64,000 nucleotides of DNA from Halobellus litoreus (GTDB lineage Archaea > Halobacteriota > Halobacteria > Halobacteriales > Haloferacaceae), in assembly GCF_024464595.1 (NCBI RefSeq), contig NZ_JANHAW010000001.1, positions 1,133,083 to 1,197,082 on the forward strand, written 5' to 3'. The notes under the pieces are model-generated. The model ran no database searches, was not told the origin of the DNA, and saw only the letters and a list, made by a program, of their open reading frames with translations. The position numbers and the translations under genes are program-made. This document shows positions 8,679 through 14,361 of this stretch, one piece after another; position 1 is the first letter of the stretch, and each line of letters starts with the position of its first letter.

Positions 8679-8742
8679 CGCGAGCCGTCGGCCCCGCGCC
8701 GACCGAGAAGGTATTTGCCGTCGGATCCGGTATGGGTGAGTG

Positions 8743-9825
8743 ATGTACGATTTCGCGGTCGTGGGCGTCGGCCCCGCCGGCGCGCGCTTCGCCCGGCGCG
8801 CGGCCGAGTCCGGCTACGACGTCGTCGCCTTCGAGCAGGGAACCGTCGGGACGCCGCTCGCGTGCTCGGGGCACGTCAGCACCGACATCTGGGACTACGT
8901 CCCCGACGACGCGAAGGCCGACCTCCTCCAGAACCGGGTCTACGGCGCGCGGTTCCACGTCGGCGGCCCCGACTCGGCGGCCTACCCGTTCTACAAGCGC
9001 GAGGAGATCTCGAACGTGATCGACCGGGTCGAACTCGATCGCACGCTCGCCGACTGCGCTCGTGAAGCGGGTGCGGACGTCCGCGAGGAGCACACCGTCG
9101 TCGACGTCGACGAGCGCCACGACGGCGTCGAACTCACCGTCTCGAACGCCGGGGGGACCGAGACCGTCCGGGCGAAGATGGTCGCCGGCTGCGACGGCCC
9201 GACATCGCGCGTGCGCCGACAGTGCGGGCTCCCCGAACCCGCGGAGATCCTCCACGGCGTCCTCGCGTTCGATCCCGACCCCGACGACGGCGACTTCGTC
9301 GACGTCCACCTCACCGCGCCGCGGTTTTTCGCCTGGCGCATCCCGCGCGGCGACGCGGGCGTCGAGTACGGCCTCGCGGCCCCGCCGGGACGCTCGGTCA
9401 ACGACCTGTTCGAGCGACTCACCGACGCCTACGCGGTCGAGACGGAACACTTCTGTTCCGGCGCGATCCCGATCGGCCCGCCCGAGCGGGTGCACGGCCG
9501 GCGCGCGTTCCTGCTCGGCGACGCCGCCGCGCAGACGAAGCCGTTCACCGGCGGAGGCATCCTCTACGGGATGACGGCCGCCGACTGCGCCGCGCGGACC
9601 GTCGACCCCGACGATCCGGGGACGCTCAGGGAGTACGAGTCGGCGTGGCGGTCGGAGCTCTCCCGGGAAATCGCGCTGGGACACTGGCTCCGCCGCGCGT
9701 ACTCGCTTCCGGAACCGATTCAGCGGCTCGGCCTCCGGACGCTCTCGGGCGAGATCGGCGTCCATATGGACCGTCCGACCTCGTTCTTCTCGCGGGAGCA
9801 CCTGACGAAACTGGTCGGCCGGTAG
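8743..9825 (+). CDS. Geranylgeranyl reductase family FAD-dependent oxidoreductase
   Basis: The 360-residue flavoprotein opens with a Rossmann FAD site (VVGVGPAGARFARRAAESGYDVV) and contains the family's second FAD motif, LLGDAAAQTKPFTGGGILYGM. Family members saturate isoprenoid chains of archaeal lipids, quinones or related compounds, but haloarchaea carry many paralogues and this one's substrate is unknown. A GTG lies immediately before the ATG at 8743; the ATG puts the FAD motif at its usual distance from the start. It is convergent with the histidine kinase that ends at 9828, only 2 bases away. Confidence 0.85.
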   Translation: MYDFAVVGVGPAGARFARRAAESGYDVVAFEQGTVGTPLACSGHVSTDIWDYVPDDAKADLLQNRVYGARFHVGGPDSAAYPFYKREEISNVIDRVELDRTLADCAREAGADVREEHTVVDVDERHDGVELTVSNAGGTETVRAKMVAGCDGPTSRVRRQCGLPEPAEILHGVLAFDPDPDDGDFVDVHLTAPRFFAWRIPRGDAGVEYGLAAPPGRSVNDLFERLTDAYAVETEHFCSGAIPIGPPERVHGRRAFLLGDAAAQTKPFTGGGILYGMTAADCAARTVDPDDPGTLREYESAWRSELSREIALGHWLRRAYSLPEPIQRLGLRTLSGEIGVHMDRPTSFFSREHLTKLVGR

Positions 9826-9827
9826 CG

Positions 9828-11630
9828 TTACACCCTGAACCCGTCGCGGTCGATGTCGCGATTCCCGTCTGGGGTCGAGAAGCGCAGTTCGATCGTCGTC
9901 CCGTCGTCTTCGGCGTAGTCAATCCGTCCCCCGACCCGTTCGACCGTCCAGCGGACGAGCCAGAGACCGACCCCGCCGGCGTGTTCCGTCGGGCTCTCCT
10001 CGGTATCCGCGAAGACGGTGTGTTCGTGTTTGGGGATCCCGTCTCCCTGATCCGTGACCGAGAGGAGCGTCTCGTCCGGTCCGGGATCGACCCGAACGAC
10101 GATCGGCGGATCGCCGTGTTCGGCCGCGTTTTCGACGATTTCGGCGACGGCCAGGGGAACGCCCTGATCGCCCCGGATTGGGGCCTCGTCGGGGAGTGAC
10201 GTGTGCACGGGTGCGTTCGGATAGCCGGAGCGGACCTCCTCGATGGCTTCGCGCGTGTCGACGACGAGGTCCCGCGTCTCGACCGTCGCCACCTCGTCGC
10301 TCACGACGTCGCGGAACTGCCTCGCGGTCTCGCTCTGGCCGAGGAGGTCCTCGCCCGCGTCGAGAATTCGCTCGGCCGCGCCGCGGACCGCGGGATCCTC
10401 GTGGTCGGCCAGCTCCTCGGCGTACCCGGTGACGACGTTCATCCGGTTGCGGACGTTGTGTCGAAGCACCCGATCGAGCACCGAGAGTCGGCGTCGGTTT
10501 CTGACCCACTCGGTGACGTCCCGCTGGAATCCGAGGTAGTTGGTCACCGTTCCCGACGCGTCGCTGACCGGCATCACGTCGAGCGCGTTGTAGAACAGTT
10601 CGCCGCTCTTCCGGTAGTTGACGACGATCACGCTGACAGGCAGGTCGCGGTCGATCGCACGCCGGATCCGCGCGACGGTCTGTCGGTCCGTTCGCTCGCC
10701 CTGGAGGAACCGGCAGTTGCGACCGATCGCCGCCTCGCGGTCGTAGCCGGTGATCTCGACGAACTTCTCGTTGACGTAAATCATCGGGTTGTCCGAGAGG
10801 CTCGGGTCGGTGATCGTGATCCCGATGCTCGCCTCGTCCATCGCCCGGCGGTAGAGTTCGAGACGGCGTTCGCGCTCGACCCGCTCCGTCACGTCCTGCA
10901 GGAGGACCAGCAGTTCGTCGCCCTCACCGGTGTGGACGGCGGCGGTTTCGCAGAGCGCGGTCCGATCGCCGACCTCGAGCGAGACCGTTCGGAACGTCGG
11001 CCCGGTGGAGTCGATGTCGGCCGGGGCATCGTCGAGGAGCTCCGAGAACGACGCGCGGTCCGACTCGGCGACGAACGTCTCGAGGGAGAGGCCCGATAGC
11101 GCCGCCGAGTCGCGGTCGAGGAGCTGTTCGGCGGCGCGGTTGGCCGCGCGGATCTCGCCGTCGGCGACCAGCACCTTCGCGTTCGGGGCCAACTCGAACA
11201 GGCGACGGTACCGCTCCTCGGCCTCCCAGAGGTCCTGTGAGAGCCGGCGACGGCGGGCGAGCGTGTCGATCCGGAACTGGAGTCGCGCGGGGTCCAGCGG
11301 CGCGCTCACCACGTCGTCGATCAGCCCGCGAGCCGACGCCTCGATCCCCTCGAAGCTTCGGTCGCGCTCGACGACCAGCAGACAGGGGAGAAACGTCGAC
11401 GCCGCCGCCTGCGCTCGACGGATCTCGTCGGCGAACTGGCGCAGACCGGTCCGGTCGGCGAGGCAGACGTCGAACGCCGGCAGTCGGTCCGACTCGGAGG
11501 CGTCGGAGGGCGTGACGAGACTGTACGCCGACGCGCTCTGCACCCAGTCGACGAGAACGCGCCGGTTCCCGCGGTTCGAAACGAGGACGAGGACGTTCGT
11601 CCCGCGGATCGACTGCGTCCCGTCGGTCAT
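9828..11630 (-). CDS. LOV-domain sensor histidine kinase
   Basis: The 600-residue soluble kinase contains, in order, a degenerate receiver-like domain (about 10-125), a PAS domain (138-250), a LOV-type PAS domain (258-374), a phospho-acceptor helix with His391 in RHNVRNRMNVVTGYAEEL, and a HATPase domain (about 485-588; VENAAEHG, DQGDGIP, GVGLWLV). The LOV domain has the photochemical motif GRNCRFLQG with Cys306, the flavin-binding NYRKSGELFYNAL, and Gln369 before DVT. This is the signature of blue-light receptors that form a cysteinyl-FMN adduct. Its ATG overlaps the stop of the KaiC-like gene (ATGA), implying coupled translation. No response regulator is nearby. Confidence 0.9.
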   Translation of the reverse strand: MTDGTQSIRGTNVLVLVSNRGNRRVLVDWVQSASAYSLVTPSDASESDRLPAFDVCLADRTGLRQFADEIRRAQAAASTFLPCLLVVERDRSFEGIEASARGLIDDVVSAPLDPARLQFRIDTLARRRRLSQDLWEAEERYRRLFELAPNAKVLVADGEIRAANRAAEQLLDRDSAALSGLSLETFVAESDRASFSELLDDAPADIDSTGPTFRTVSLEVGDRTALCETAAVHTGEGDELLVLLQDVTERVERERRLELYRRAMDEASIGITITDPSLSDNPMIYVNEKFVEITGYDREAAIGRNCRFLQGERTDRQTVARIRRAIDRDLPVSVIVVNYRKSGELFYNALDVMPVSDASGTVTNYLGFQRDVTEWVRNRRRLSVLDRVLRHNVRNRMNVVTGYAEELADHEDPAVRGAAERILDAGEDLLGQSETARQFRDVVSDEVATVETRDLVVDTREAIEEVRSGYPNAPVHTSLPDEAPIRGDQGVPLAVAEIVENAAEHGDPPIVVRVDPGPDETLLSVTDQGDGIPKHEHTVFADTEESPTEHAGGVGLWLVRWTVERVGGRIDYAEDDGTTIELRFSTPDGNRDIDRDGFRV

Positions 11631-13135
11631 TTGTGACTATCGGTGCGATCGGAGGGCGAGTCGGAATCGCCGTCGTCCGGCCCGAACGGGCGATCGCTCC
11701 CCCACTCCGGCGTTCCCGTGAGAACCCCGCGGAGCCCGGTCAGCGGTTCCCCGACGTGGACGCCGTTGTCCCGGATCTCGAACTCACGCAGCGTCCGCTC
11801 GAAATCGCCGGTCCGCTTTTTCAGCACGCCGGCCGCCTTGCGGAGTTCGCCGTACGCCTCCAGATATCTGAGAAACAGGAGGTTGTCCGCGAGGTAGCTG
11901 ATGTTCGAACTCGTCGGCTCGAAGTCGCCCGTGACCGAGTCGAGGTCGTCGACGAAGATCGCGCTCACGCCCATCCGCTTGAGGTACCGTCCGAGCGCGT
12001 GCAGTTCCCGGATCAGTTCCGACTCGTCGCCGCGGATCGAGAGCCGGTAGCCGGAGATGCCGTCGATCACGACGAACTCGGCGTCGCGTTGCTCGACTTC
12101 GGTCCGGACCCGCTGGGCGAACTCGTCCGGAGAGATCGAGAGCGGTTCGACCTCTTCGACGGCGAGCGTCCCGTCGGCTTCCAGTTCCTCGATCGGGACG
12201 CCAACCCCCTTCGAGCGGCGGACGAAGGTGTCGCGCGTCTCCTCGAACAGGTAAAAGACCGCGCGGTCGCCTCTCGCAGCCGCCTCGCTCGCGAACTGCG
12301 TCGCCGTCGTCGACTTCCCGACGCCGCTGGGGCCGCTCACCACGGTCACCGTGCTGCTCTCGATGCCGCCGTGGAGCAGTTTGTCGAGTTCGTCGACGCC
12401 CGAAGAGAGCGTCCGCGACTCCCGGATTCGGCCGTGCGAATCGGGCGAAAGTTTCGTGAACACCGACATTCCCGAATCGGAGATCCGCACCGTGTGCGCC
12501 CCCGAGCGGAAGTCCGAGCCGCGGAACTTCGTCACCTCGATCGTCCGCCCCTTCGGCGCGTGATCGAGCCTGATGCTCCCGTCGCAGAGGTACTCCAGCG
12601 TGGCCCGCTCGCCCTCGACGGCGGCCTGGGAACTGAACAAGACGGTCGCCCCCGCGTCGGTGAGGTACTGGACGAACCCGGCGACCTCCTGGCGGTACTG
12701 GTACTCGTCGGGGGCGAGGTACTGGAGGTGGGTCAGCGGGTCGACGAAGACGCGGTCGGGAGCGGTCGCTTCGACCGCCTCGACGATCCGCGCGGCGACG
12801 CCGGAGCCCTCGACGACGTCCGGTTCGAACACGTCGTAGGACTGGTCGTCGACGAACCGGGCCGCGTCGGGCGAGAGGTCGAGAAACGTGATGTCCGACG
12901 TGTCGAAGCCGACCCCCGCCGCGTCGTCAGCGAGGTCCGCGGGGTCCTCCTCGAAGGCGACGAAGAGAGCGTCTTCGCCCGCTTCGATGGCCTCGGAGAG
13001 AAAGTGAAGTCCCGCGATCGTCTTTCCCGTTCCGGCCCCGCCGGTCACCATATACGCCCGCTCCCGGATGAGCCCGCCGTCGAGAATCTCGTCGAGGCCG
13101 GCGATGCCGGTCGAGAGACGATCGCGCTCGTGCAT
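11627..13135 (-). CDS. KaiC-like two-domain ATPase
   Basis: The 502-residue RecA-fold protein has tandem KaiC domains: P-loop GAGTGKT (33-39) with Glu62/Glu63, then P-loop GPSGVGKS (268-275) with Glu298/Glu299. The arginine-rich KFRGSDFRSGAHTVRIS segment (203-219) closes the first domain. In the second, TSSNISYLADNLLFLRYLE aligns with the KaiC phosphorylation segment. From memory of cyanobacterial KaiC, Thr408 matches T426, Ser413 matches S431 and Tyr414 replaces T432. A disordered acidic tail follows residue 480. I chose the ATG at 13135 (MHERDRLSTGIAGLDE), the usual family start. It is first in a two-gene operon with the LOV kinase. Confidence 0.9.
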   Translation of the reverse strand: MHERDRLSTGIAGLDEILDGGLIRERAYMVTGGAGTGKTIAGLHFLSEAIEAGEDALFVAFEEDPADLADDAAGVGFDTSDITFLDLSPDAARFVDDQSYDVFEPDVVEGSGVAARIVEAVEATAPDRVFVDPLTHLQYLAPDEYQYRQEVAGFVQYLTDAGATVLFSSQAAVEGERATLEYLCDGSIRLDHAPKGRTIEVTKFRGSDFRSGAHTVRISDSGMSVFTKLSPDSHGRIRESRTLSSGVDELDKLLHGGIESSTVTVVSGPSGVGKSTTATQFASEAAARGDRAVFYLFEETRDTFVRRSKGVGVPIEELEADGTLAVEEVEPLSISPDEFAQRVRTEVEQRDAEFVVIDGISGYRLSIRGDESELIRELHALGRYLKRMGVSAIFVDDLDSVTGDFEPTSSNISYLADNLLFLRYLEAYGELRKAAGVLKKRTGDFERTLREFEIRDNGVHVGEPLTGLRGVLTGTPEWGSDRPFGPDDGDSDSPSDRTDSHK

Positions 13136-13206: not shown

Positions 13207-14361
13207 CTACTCGCCCGGATACGACGGGAGACGCGCCGAAACGGCGCTCCCCTCGACGAACGGCAGCGGAGCGACGGTCGCCTCGACCGTGCCGTCGGCA
13301 GTTCGGACCACCAGCGACGGCCCGCTTTCGTCGTTGATTTCCGCCGCAACTCCGGCATCGACGAAGCCGAGCGCGATCGATCGACCCAGGCGCGGACTCT
13401 CGACGGCCCGGGTGACCTCGCCGACGGTCTCGTCGGTGTCGCCTCCGCCCCGTCGAGCGACGAGCGACGCGCCGGCGTCCGGCAGCGTCCACCCCTCGTC
13501 GCCGTCGTGTCCGTCGAGTCGGAGCCCGACCAGCCGCTGACTCGGCCGCCCGCGGTTCTCGACCTTCGAGACGACCTCCTGGCCGACGTAACAGCCCTTC
13601 TCGAAATCGAGCGCGTTGCGGACGCCGACCACGTTCGGGATCCGGCCGTCGAGTTCGGTGTCGAAAAGCGGCGTTCCGGCCTCAGTCGTGAGGATCTCCC
13701 AGGTCCGATAGCCGAACGGAACGGCGTTCATCCCGAACGTCAGGAGCGTCTCGAAGACGCGCTCGGCGGCGTCGACGCCGCAGACGATTTCGTACCCCTC
13801 CTCGCCCGCGAGGCCGTCGCCCGCGATGACGGTGACGCCCTCGCCACCCATCGATCCCCGGACGAAGGTGAGTTCGGGTTCGGGCGCGCCGGCCCCGTTG
13901 AGTACGCTCGCGACCTTTTCGGTCGATTTCGAGCCGTGAACGCCGAAAATCGCGAAGTCGGTCGACGCCTCGCGGACCTCGACGTCTTGAATGAAGACCT
14001 TCTCGGCCCACTCGGCGGCCAGCGGTTCCGCGTGCGCCGGCGGAGTGAAGCACAGCAACCGCTCGCCGGCGTTGTAGACGTACAGGTCCGTCTCGATGCG
14101 GCCCTGGGGGTCCAAAAGCAGCGCGTAGACGCCCTCGCCGTCGGATCTGGGGACTCGATTCGACACCGTGTCGTCGACGAACTCGATCCGGTCGTCGCCC
14201 TCGACGACGACGACGCCGTAGCCCATCTCGATCACGCCGGCGCCGTTGCGGACCGCGAGCGTCGTCCGCTCCGGACGGCCGTAGTCGATGACGACCCGAC
14301 GACCGCCGCGCTCCTCGAACGTCGCACCGTGATCCTCGTGTAGTTCCGTGACGACCGTCAT
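13207..14361 (-). CDS. ygfZ: YgfZ/GcvT-fold iron-sulfur assembly protein
   Basis: The 384-residue folate-binding barrel protein is related to the glycine-cleavage T protein. The motif KGCYVGQE with Cys257 is the YgfZ/Iba57 signature. In bacteria this protein supports maturation of certain 4Fe-4S enzymes in a tetrahydrofolate-dependent way; that role is carried over by family. It lies 71 bases upstream of the KaiC-like gene on the same strand and may be in the same transcript. Its start is head-to-head with RNA copy B, whose TATA box is 91 bases away. Confidence 0.85.
   Translation of the reverse strand: MTVVTELHEDHGATFEERGGRRVVIDYGRPERTTLAVRNGAGVIEMGYGVVVVEGDDRIEFVDDTVSNRVPRSDGEGVYALLLDPQGRIETDLYVYNAGERLLCFTPPAHAEPLAAEWAEKVFIQDVEVREASTDFAIFGVHGSKSTEKVASVLNGAGAPEPELTFVRGSMGGEGVTVIAGDGLAGEEGYEIVCGVDAAERVFETLLTFGMNAVPFGYRTWEILTTEAGTPLFDTELDGRIPNVVGVRNALDFEKGCYVGQEVVSKVENRGRPSQRLVGLRLDGHDGDEGWTLPDAGASLVARRGGGDTDETVGEVTRAVESPRLGRSIALGFVDAGVAAEINDESGPSLVVRTADGTVEATVAPLPFVEGSAVSARLPSYPGE

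Follow-up and report, generated by a model that had tools for sequence, protein, structure and literature searches.

The 64,000-nucleotide stretch of the Halobellus litoreus genome analysed here (the window; contig NZ_JANHAW010000001.1 of assembly GCF_024464595.1, positions 1,133,083 to 1,197,082) carries on its minus strand a gene for a double-domain KaiC-like ATPase whose end overlaps the start of a gene for a LOV histidine kinase. Our analysis suggests that this pair constitutes a light-linked KaiC signalling module. We consider it moderately probable, judging from sequence, that the two proteins form one signalling complex in which a light- or flavin-sensing kinase would be docked on KaiC. 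This reading draws on the overlap of the genes, their domain content, the conservation of the pairing and a domain common to KaiC partners, all of which can be read directly from the genomes. In window coordinates, the pair comprises the following features.

11627..13135, minus strand: double-domain KaiC-like ATPase gene, 502 aa, with two PF06745 matches (E 8e-71) and PDB matches
12452..13120, minus strand: CI-like ATPase domain, residues 6-228, with Walker A motif GGAGTGKT and catalytic EE at residues 62-63
11705..12421, minus strand: CII-like ATPase domain, residues 239-477, with Walker A motif GPSGVGKS and catalytic EE
11894..11899, minus strand: Ser413-Tyr414, aligned to the KaiC phosphosites Ser431-Thr432 in an alignment of 125 sequences
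11627..11630, minus strand: ATGA stop/start overlap of the KaiC TGA with the kinase ATG, from the sequence
9828..11630, minus strand: LOV histidine kinase gene, 600 aa, from domain searches
11238..11600, minus strand: N-terminal degenerate receiver domain common to KaiC partners, residues about 11-131, from a profile match to PDB receivers
10872..11216, minus strand: first PAS domain, residues about 139-253, from PAS matches in two stretches
10482..10865, minus strand: LOV domain, residues about 256-383 (YtvA_fam, E 3e-42), with photoactive Cys306
9867..10481, minus strand: histidine kinase core (PF02518), with His391, N box NAAEHG and G boxes DQGDGIP and GGVGLWL

The best PDB-chain matches of the 502-residue protein are KaiC (top E 6.6e-61). 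In its two RecA-type KaiC domains, each Walker A motif and each catalytic Glu pair is intact, as an earlier note on this DNA had stated of its active sites. The protein scores below the NCBI equivalog ‘circadian clock protein KaiC’ (271 bits against a cut-off of 408; NF006799) and below TIGR02655 (182 bits against 546). A scan of genome contigs listed the five closest haloarchaeal loci and two distant bacterial loci, and among these listed matches the nearest named relatives at the locus are Halobellus species, with KaiC identities of 88, 77 and 74 percent. When 124 haloarchaeal KaiCs are aligned with a reference sequence, Ser occupies the Ser431-equivalent position, and Thr or Ser the Thr426-equivalent position, in 125 of 125 sequences. 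At the Thr432-equivalent position, 122 of the 125 carry Tyr and the reference sequence retains Thr. A Methylobacter KaiC (L014) has Ser-Thr at the Ser431-Thr432 position.

In the kinase, the LOV motif GRNCRFLQ occupies residues 303-310, and alignment to the YtvA LOV domain of YF1 (4gcz, E 9e-37) reveals that the flavin positions N, C, R, Q, R, N, N and Q are retained. The HATPase_c match in the kinase core has an E of 6e-14, and the phosphoacceptor His391 and the kinase-core motifs are conserved among relatives. The home genome yields about 40 HATPase matches and four GRNCRFLQ proteins, three of which are HATPase kinases including that of the window. The three GRNCRFLQ proteins encoded elsewhere in this genome (G000 C1:880783, L197; C1:900051, L198; C1:983834, L199) lack a strong match to the receiver-like domain of KaiC partners that is described below; the first of them, L197, has a KaiC-family gene (L001) at a distance of about 5 kb.

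The sequence bears out the overlap of the KaiC TGA with the kinase ATG that the earlier note had pointed to. The same ATGA junction is present in the Halobellus loci L009, L010 and L013, and most tandem relatives have a comparable overlap or a very short gap between the two genes. No ribosome-binding site is evident directly before the kinase ATG, which fits reinitiation at the kinase start. Overlaps of this kind tightly couple translation in Haloferax volcanii, and subunits of heteromeric complexes are over-represented among the genes that share them (PMC10666635; PMC6728339).

Each window protein was searched against 392 genomes of the order, and 120 loci around the best KaiC matches were taken and their neighbour genes scored, with a histidine kinase within 450 bases of KaiC counted as a kinase neighbour. 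Such a neighbour is present in 93 of 125 KaiC rows. In a cleaned set of 91 partner kinases (one wrong pick removed, duplicates merged), 46 contain a LOV domain with the cysteine, 11 a LOV-like domain without it and 34 other sensors. The locus sample is biased toward KaiCs resembling that of the window and one genus (g2) supplies 20 loci, so the genus-level count is the fair one: LOV-Cys partners occur in 15 of 33 genera, compared with 2 of 39 other kinases of the home genome (p 6e-5 by genus). The search for conserved adjacency across haloarchaea that the earlier note had proposed thus gives a pairing that spans many genera rather than one genome. Chance adjacency of KaiC and kinase was considered and rejected.

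On a KaiC tree built by a quick method with SH-aLRT support, the LOV label falls mainly in two clades. The tandem clade (27 rows, including the window) has 15 LOV-Cys partners, 9 LOV partners without the cysteine and 3 rows without a kinase; in the divergent, head-to-head clade, 29 of 32 rows have LOV-Cys partners. Gene order differs between these clades, which speaks for a functional connection and against a single frozen operon. The same observation bears on the explanation that the locus is an ordinary operon, in which two signalling proteins are co-expressed without acting on each other. Haloarchaea are rich in kinases, as the count for the window genome illustrates, and gene overlaps are widespread (PMC10666635), but the pairing is conserved in two gene orders, partners are swapped around a common domain and that domain is almost restricted to KaiC neighbours. 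We thus regard an ordinary operon as very improbable.

The N termini of partner kinases are alike regardless of sensor, and a profile built from this region (about 120 residues) finds a receiver-like domain in 89 of the 93 kinase neighbours. Of the four misses, two are copies of one unrelated kinase, one is a wrong pick with the correct gene alongside and one is a frameshifted gene. Nearly every KaiC partner begins with the domain, whether it is a LOV kinase, another kinase or a Bat-type regulator. Bat-type regulators (GAF-BAT-HTH_10) that carry it at the N terminus lie downstream of double-domain KaiCs at the following positions.

L124:7539-9125: Bat-type KaiC partner
L151:7477-9186: Bat-type KaiC partner
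L166:7406-9229: Bat-type KaiC partner
L140:7651-9780: Bat-type KaiC partner

Kinase-less loci encode short proteins composed of the domain plus PAS (L081 and L084 by scanning, L082 by similarity), and another group of KaiC loci has small receiver proteins after KaiC. An automatic count over 122 KaiC loci gave 98 strong and 11 weak domain neighbours; after allowing for divergent pairs missed by the overlap filter, about 95 percent of KaiC loci have a domain neighbour.

The specificity of the domain was assessed in 15 genomes and the window's own, with matches above 80 bits taken as strong. Scores split into two classes, and strong matches adjoin KaiC in 22 of 23 cases. The exception, L220:5863-7413, is a kinase of the partner type that has the highest domain score (G166) and no adjoining KaiC. 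The window genome has one strong match, the LOV kinase itself, and the runner-up scores 38.9 bits. In another family of the phylum, the domain is found directly after a single-domain KaiC in three genomes (L237-L239), where the domain-bearing protein is of PAS-HisKA type. Further matches in that family (about 47-96 bits) and three haloarchaeal matches of 71-75 bits are kinases without KaiC, so the association of the domain with KaiC is strong but not absolute.

The domain lacks an entry in Pfam, from which single members retrieve nothing informative, and none of them matches PF00072 at E 0.1. The domain profile, however, matches receivers of solved structures, with PleD first (E 2e-17) and CpxR at E 1.6e-7. 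Neither the receiver Lys nor the first acidic residue is seen in any of 54 domain sequences, and the central Asp is retained in 53 of the 54. The domain is thus a degenerate receiver, for which conventional phosphorylation is unlikely.

Binding, the direction of control and the light response are what we infer from these observations, and a plausible mechanism can be outlined. KaiC would form a hexamer or ring with the LOV histidine kinase as its dedicated partner, and the N-terminal degenerate receiver of the kinase would dock on KaiC. The LOV domain would sense blue light or flavin redox state and, in the manner of known LOV kinases, alter the coiled linker that leads to the kinase core. Kinase output could be gated or scaled by the ATP/ADP state of KaiC or by autophosphorylation at Ser413 of CII, and would then pass to a response regulator encoded at another locus. 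In other haloarchaea, the same chassis of KaiC and receiver domain would be combined with other sensors or with Bat-type DNA-binding output.

Several points weigh against a docked, light-sensing complex. About a third of partner kinases lack a LOV domain. In place of the LOV cysteine, 10 tandem partners have Pro or Met and one divergent partner has Phe; given the ten tandem relatives, the module does not depend on adduct chemistry. Next to the pair in the window, no gene was recognised as encoding a response regulator. KaiC distances follow domain distances (r 0.52, different genera) more closely than kinase-core distances (r 0.40), both exceeding permutations, which speaks for the complex, but common descent contributes to such correlations. 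A structure model of the kinase (six sequences) has a mean pLDDT of 60 and only about 30 over the receiver-like domain. With model confidence this low, the docking proposal relies on sequence and gene order, and the domain assignment relies on profiles since the model is too poor for a fold search.

At other loci, REC-HalX response regulators confirmed by Pfam are encoded directly upstream of KaiC (L138:5199-5993) and directly upstream of the partner kinase that lacks an adjoining KaiC (L220:5191-5817). These proteins are possible cognate regulators. Weak receiver matches occupy like positions in L132, L129, L154, L165 and L176.

The partners without the LOV cysteine also make it conceivable that the LOV domain serves as a flavin redox or oxygen sensor, such that the module would integrate redox and energy state and light would not be its physiological signal. 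The other PAS or GAF sensors on many partners fit this explanation. It is nevertheless unlikely, as the cysteine and flavin-binding residues are retained in 46 partners from 15 genera and a LOV domain from a haloarchaeal kinase is photoactive in vitro (PMC12202551).

A docked LOV kinase also offers a new view of a published locus. According to PMC3941300, CirC is the only double-domain KaiC of Haloferax volcanii; its gene is ‘adjacent to fixL’ and has orc2 on the upstream side. A search of 15 genomes of the genus for the exact cirC forward primer gave no match, so we identified the cirC locus from near matches with the correct spacing and from the open reading frame (ORF) that precedes it: L158 and L161 agree with the published cirC primers at 35 of 36 bases, with equal spacing in both, and the ORF preceding KaiC in L158 reads as a putative Orc1/Cdc6. 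In L158 and L161, which belong to the same tandem KaiC clade as the window, KaiC is followed by a LOV kinase whose reading frame opens inside the KaiC stop; the L158 kinase has GRNCRFLQ. Judging from these congeners of H. volcanii, the ‘fixL’ next to cirC is therefore very likely a LOV kinase.

The same report (2014) describes how transcripts of cirC and three other KaiC genes of H. volcanii rise in the dark. When cirB, cirC or cirD is deleted, the other genes lose their light/dark pattern and cir transcripts turn arrhythmic; under constant light or constant darkness, cir expression stays level for 12 h (PMC3941300). Because of that constancy, no free-running rhythm is shown in the part of the report examined.

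These data bear on whether the module keeps time, as the earlier note had entertained in calling it a light-dependent signalling or timing module on analogy with the KaiC-SasA clock. Light-linked KaiC signalling is a reasonable inference; the clock analogy is unsupported. Searches recovered no KaiA in the window's genome and no KaiB above the curated cut-off in any of 384 genomes of the order, its own included, with Synechococcus controls positive in both cases, which extends to the whole genome and beyond the note's report that the window lacks both. The kinase has no KaiB-like domain (PF07689), and its N terminus resembles receivers instead. A SasA-like kinase was rejected for want of the KaiB-like domain and a full KaiABC clock for want of KaiA and KaiB. 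With KaiA absent from the genome and KaiB from the order, a self-sustained oscillator of the cyanobacterial KaiABC type is unlikely, and the missing SasA domain and a Haloferax light/dark response that, as far as that report's available text goes, is not free-running add to the case against a clock.

A simpler arrangement would be a KaiC-only timer or hourglass, in which KaiC autophosphorylation would cycle on the scale of a day, LOV would entrain it to light and the kinase would report the time. The invariant CII Ser, the two intact ATP sites, the Haloferax cir transcripts that track light and dark until a cir gene is deleted, and the finding that full-length KaiCs without KaiA still autophosphorylate (PMC5520375) are consistent with such a timer. 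Set against these are the missing KaiA and KaiB, the replacement of Thr432 by Tyr, the constant cir expression already mentioned and a Haloquadratum that lacks a light/dark difference in transcripts (PMC5496347). On balance, a KaiC-only timer seems quite improbable.

Returning to a docked LOV kinase, we tentatively entertain a wider view, which we consider possible though doubtful. Haloarchaea and some other archaea of the phylum may share a KaiC signalling family in which a degenerate receiver docks interchangeable sensor-output proteins on KaiC, with a LOV branch whose photoreceptor kinase would act directly on or under KaiC, possibly yielding a KaiC-only daily timer. If true, this would be a photoreceptor-to-KaiC link of a sort unknown in cyanobacterial clocks. 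The small number of known partners of archaeal KaiC homologues is part of why archaeal KaiC-based timing stays debated, and the kinase now provides a conserved partner that can be put to the test and that carries both a light-sensor domain and a candidate for docking. The Haloferax cirC-fixL locus can be reinterpreted in an organism with good genetics, and the receiver-like domain provides a sequence signature for locating KaiC partners with any sensor.

Two further genes flank the pair. A GCV_T (aminomethyltransferase-like) gene (13207-14361) on kaiC's strand stops 71 bases short of kaiC on the upstream side, and a gene for an FAD-dependent reductase-like protein (8740-9825) is convergent with the LOV kinase gene. 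L081 also has, near KaiC, an FAD gene of the same Pfam type as the window's reductase-like gene.

The closest described arrangement is Haloferax cirC-‘fixL’, which like the window pairs a double-domain KaiC with a PAS histidine kinase. The Haloferax kinase has several more PAS domains, and the published account takes the neighbour of cirC as an oxygen sensor, with neither LOV nor conservation among the points reported in the available text (PMC3941300). The earlier note's view that the module was undescribed in haloarchaea thus holds in part: a KaiC beside a sensor kinase and light/dark cirC transcripts are already in that report, but our literature search found no paper tying KaiC to LOV in archaea, and the LOV identity of the partner, its conservation and the shared receiver-like domain appear undescribed in the literature examined.

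The cyanobacterial KaiABC-SasA-CikA clock resembles this system in its double-domain KaiC, its kinase partner and the retained Ser431 equivalent. The differences are that KaiA and KaiB are missing here, that a KaiB-like domain is absent from the kinase, that Thr432 is replaced by Tyr and that a LOV photoreceptor domain is directly present. KaiA and CikA likewise use degenerate receiver domains. For Synechococcus clock input, no photoreceptor is known (PMC5520375). LOV histidine kinases such as YF1 (a YtvA-FixL chimera) those of Brucella and Rhizobium, and the source of the haloarchaeal LOV domain of PMC12202551 share the LOV domain, coiled linker, kinase core and flavin residues, to which the window kinase adds an N-terminal degenerate receiver, a PAS domain and a KaiC partner gene. 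Some Bat-type haloarchaeal regulators are KaiC partners behind the same N-terminal domain, with DNA-binding rather than kinase output. Archaeal KaiC-like ATPases have reportedly been described by Makarova, Galperin and Koonin (2017, mBio) as hubs linked to two-component and other partners; relative to that picture, the LOV kinase partner type and the shared receiver-like domain are here resolved and quantified.

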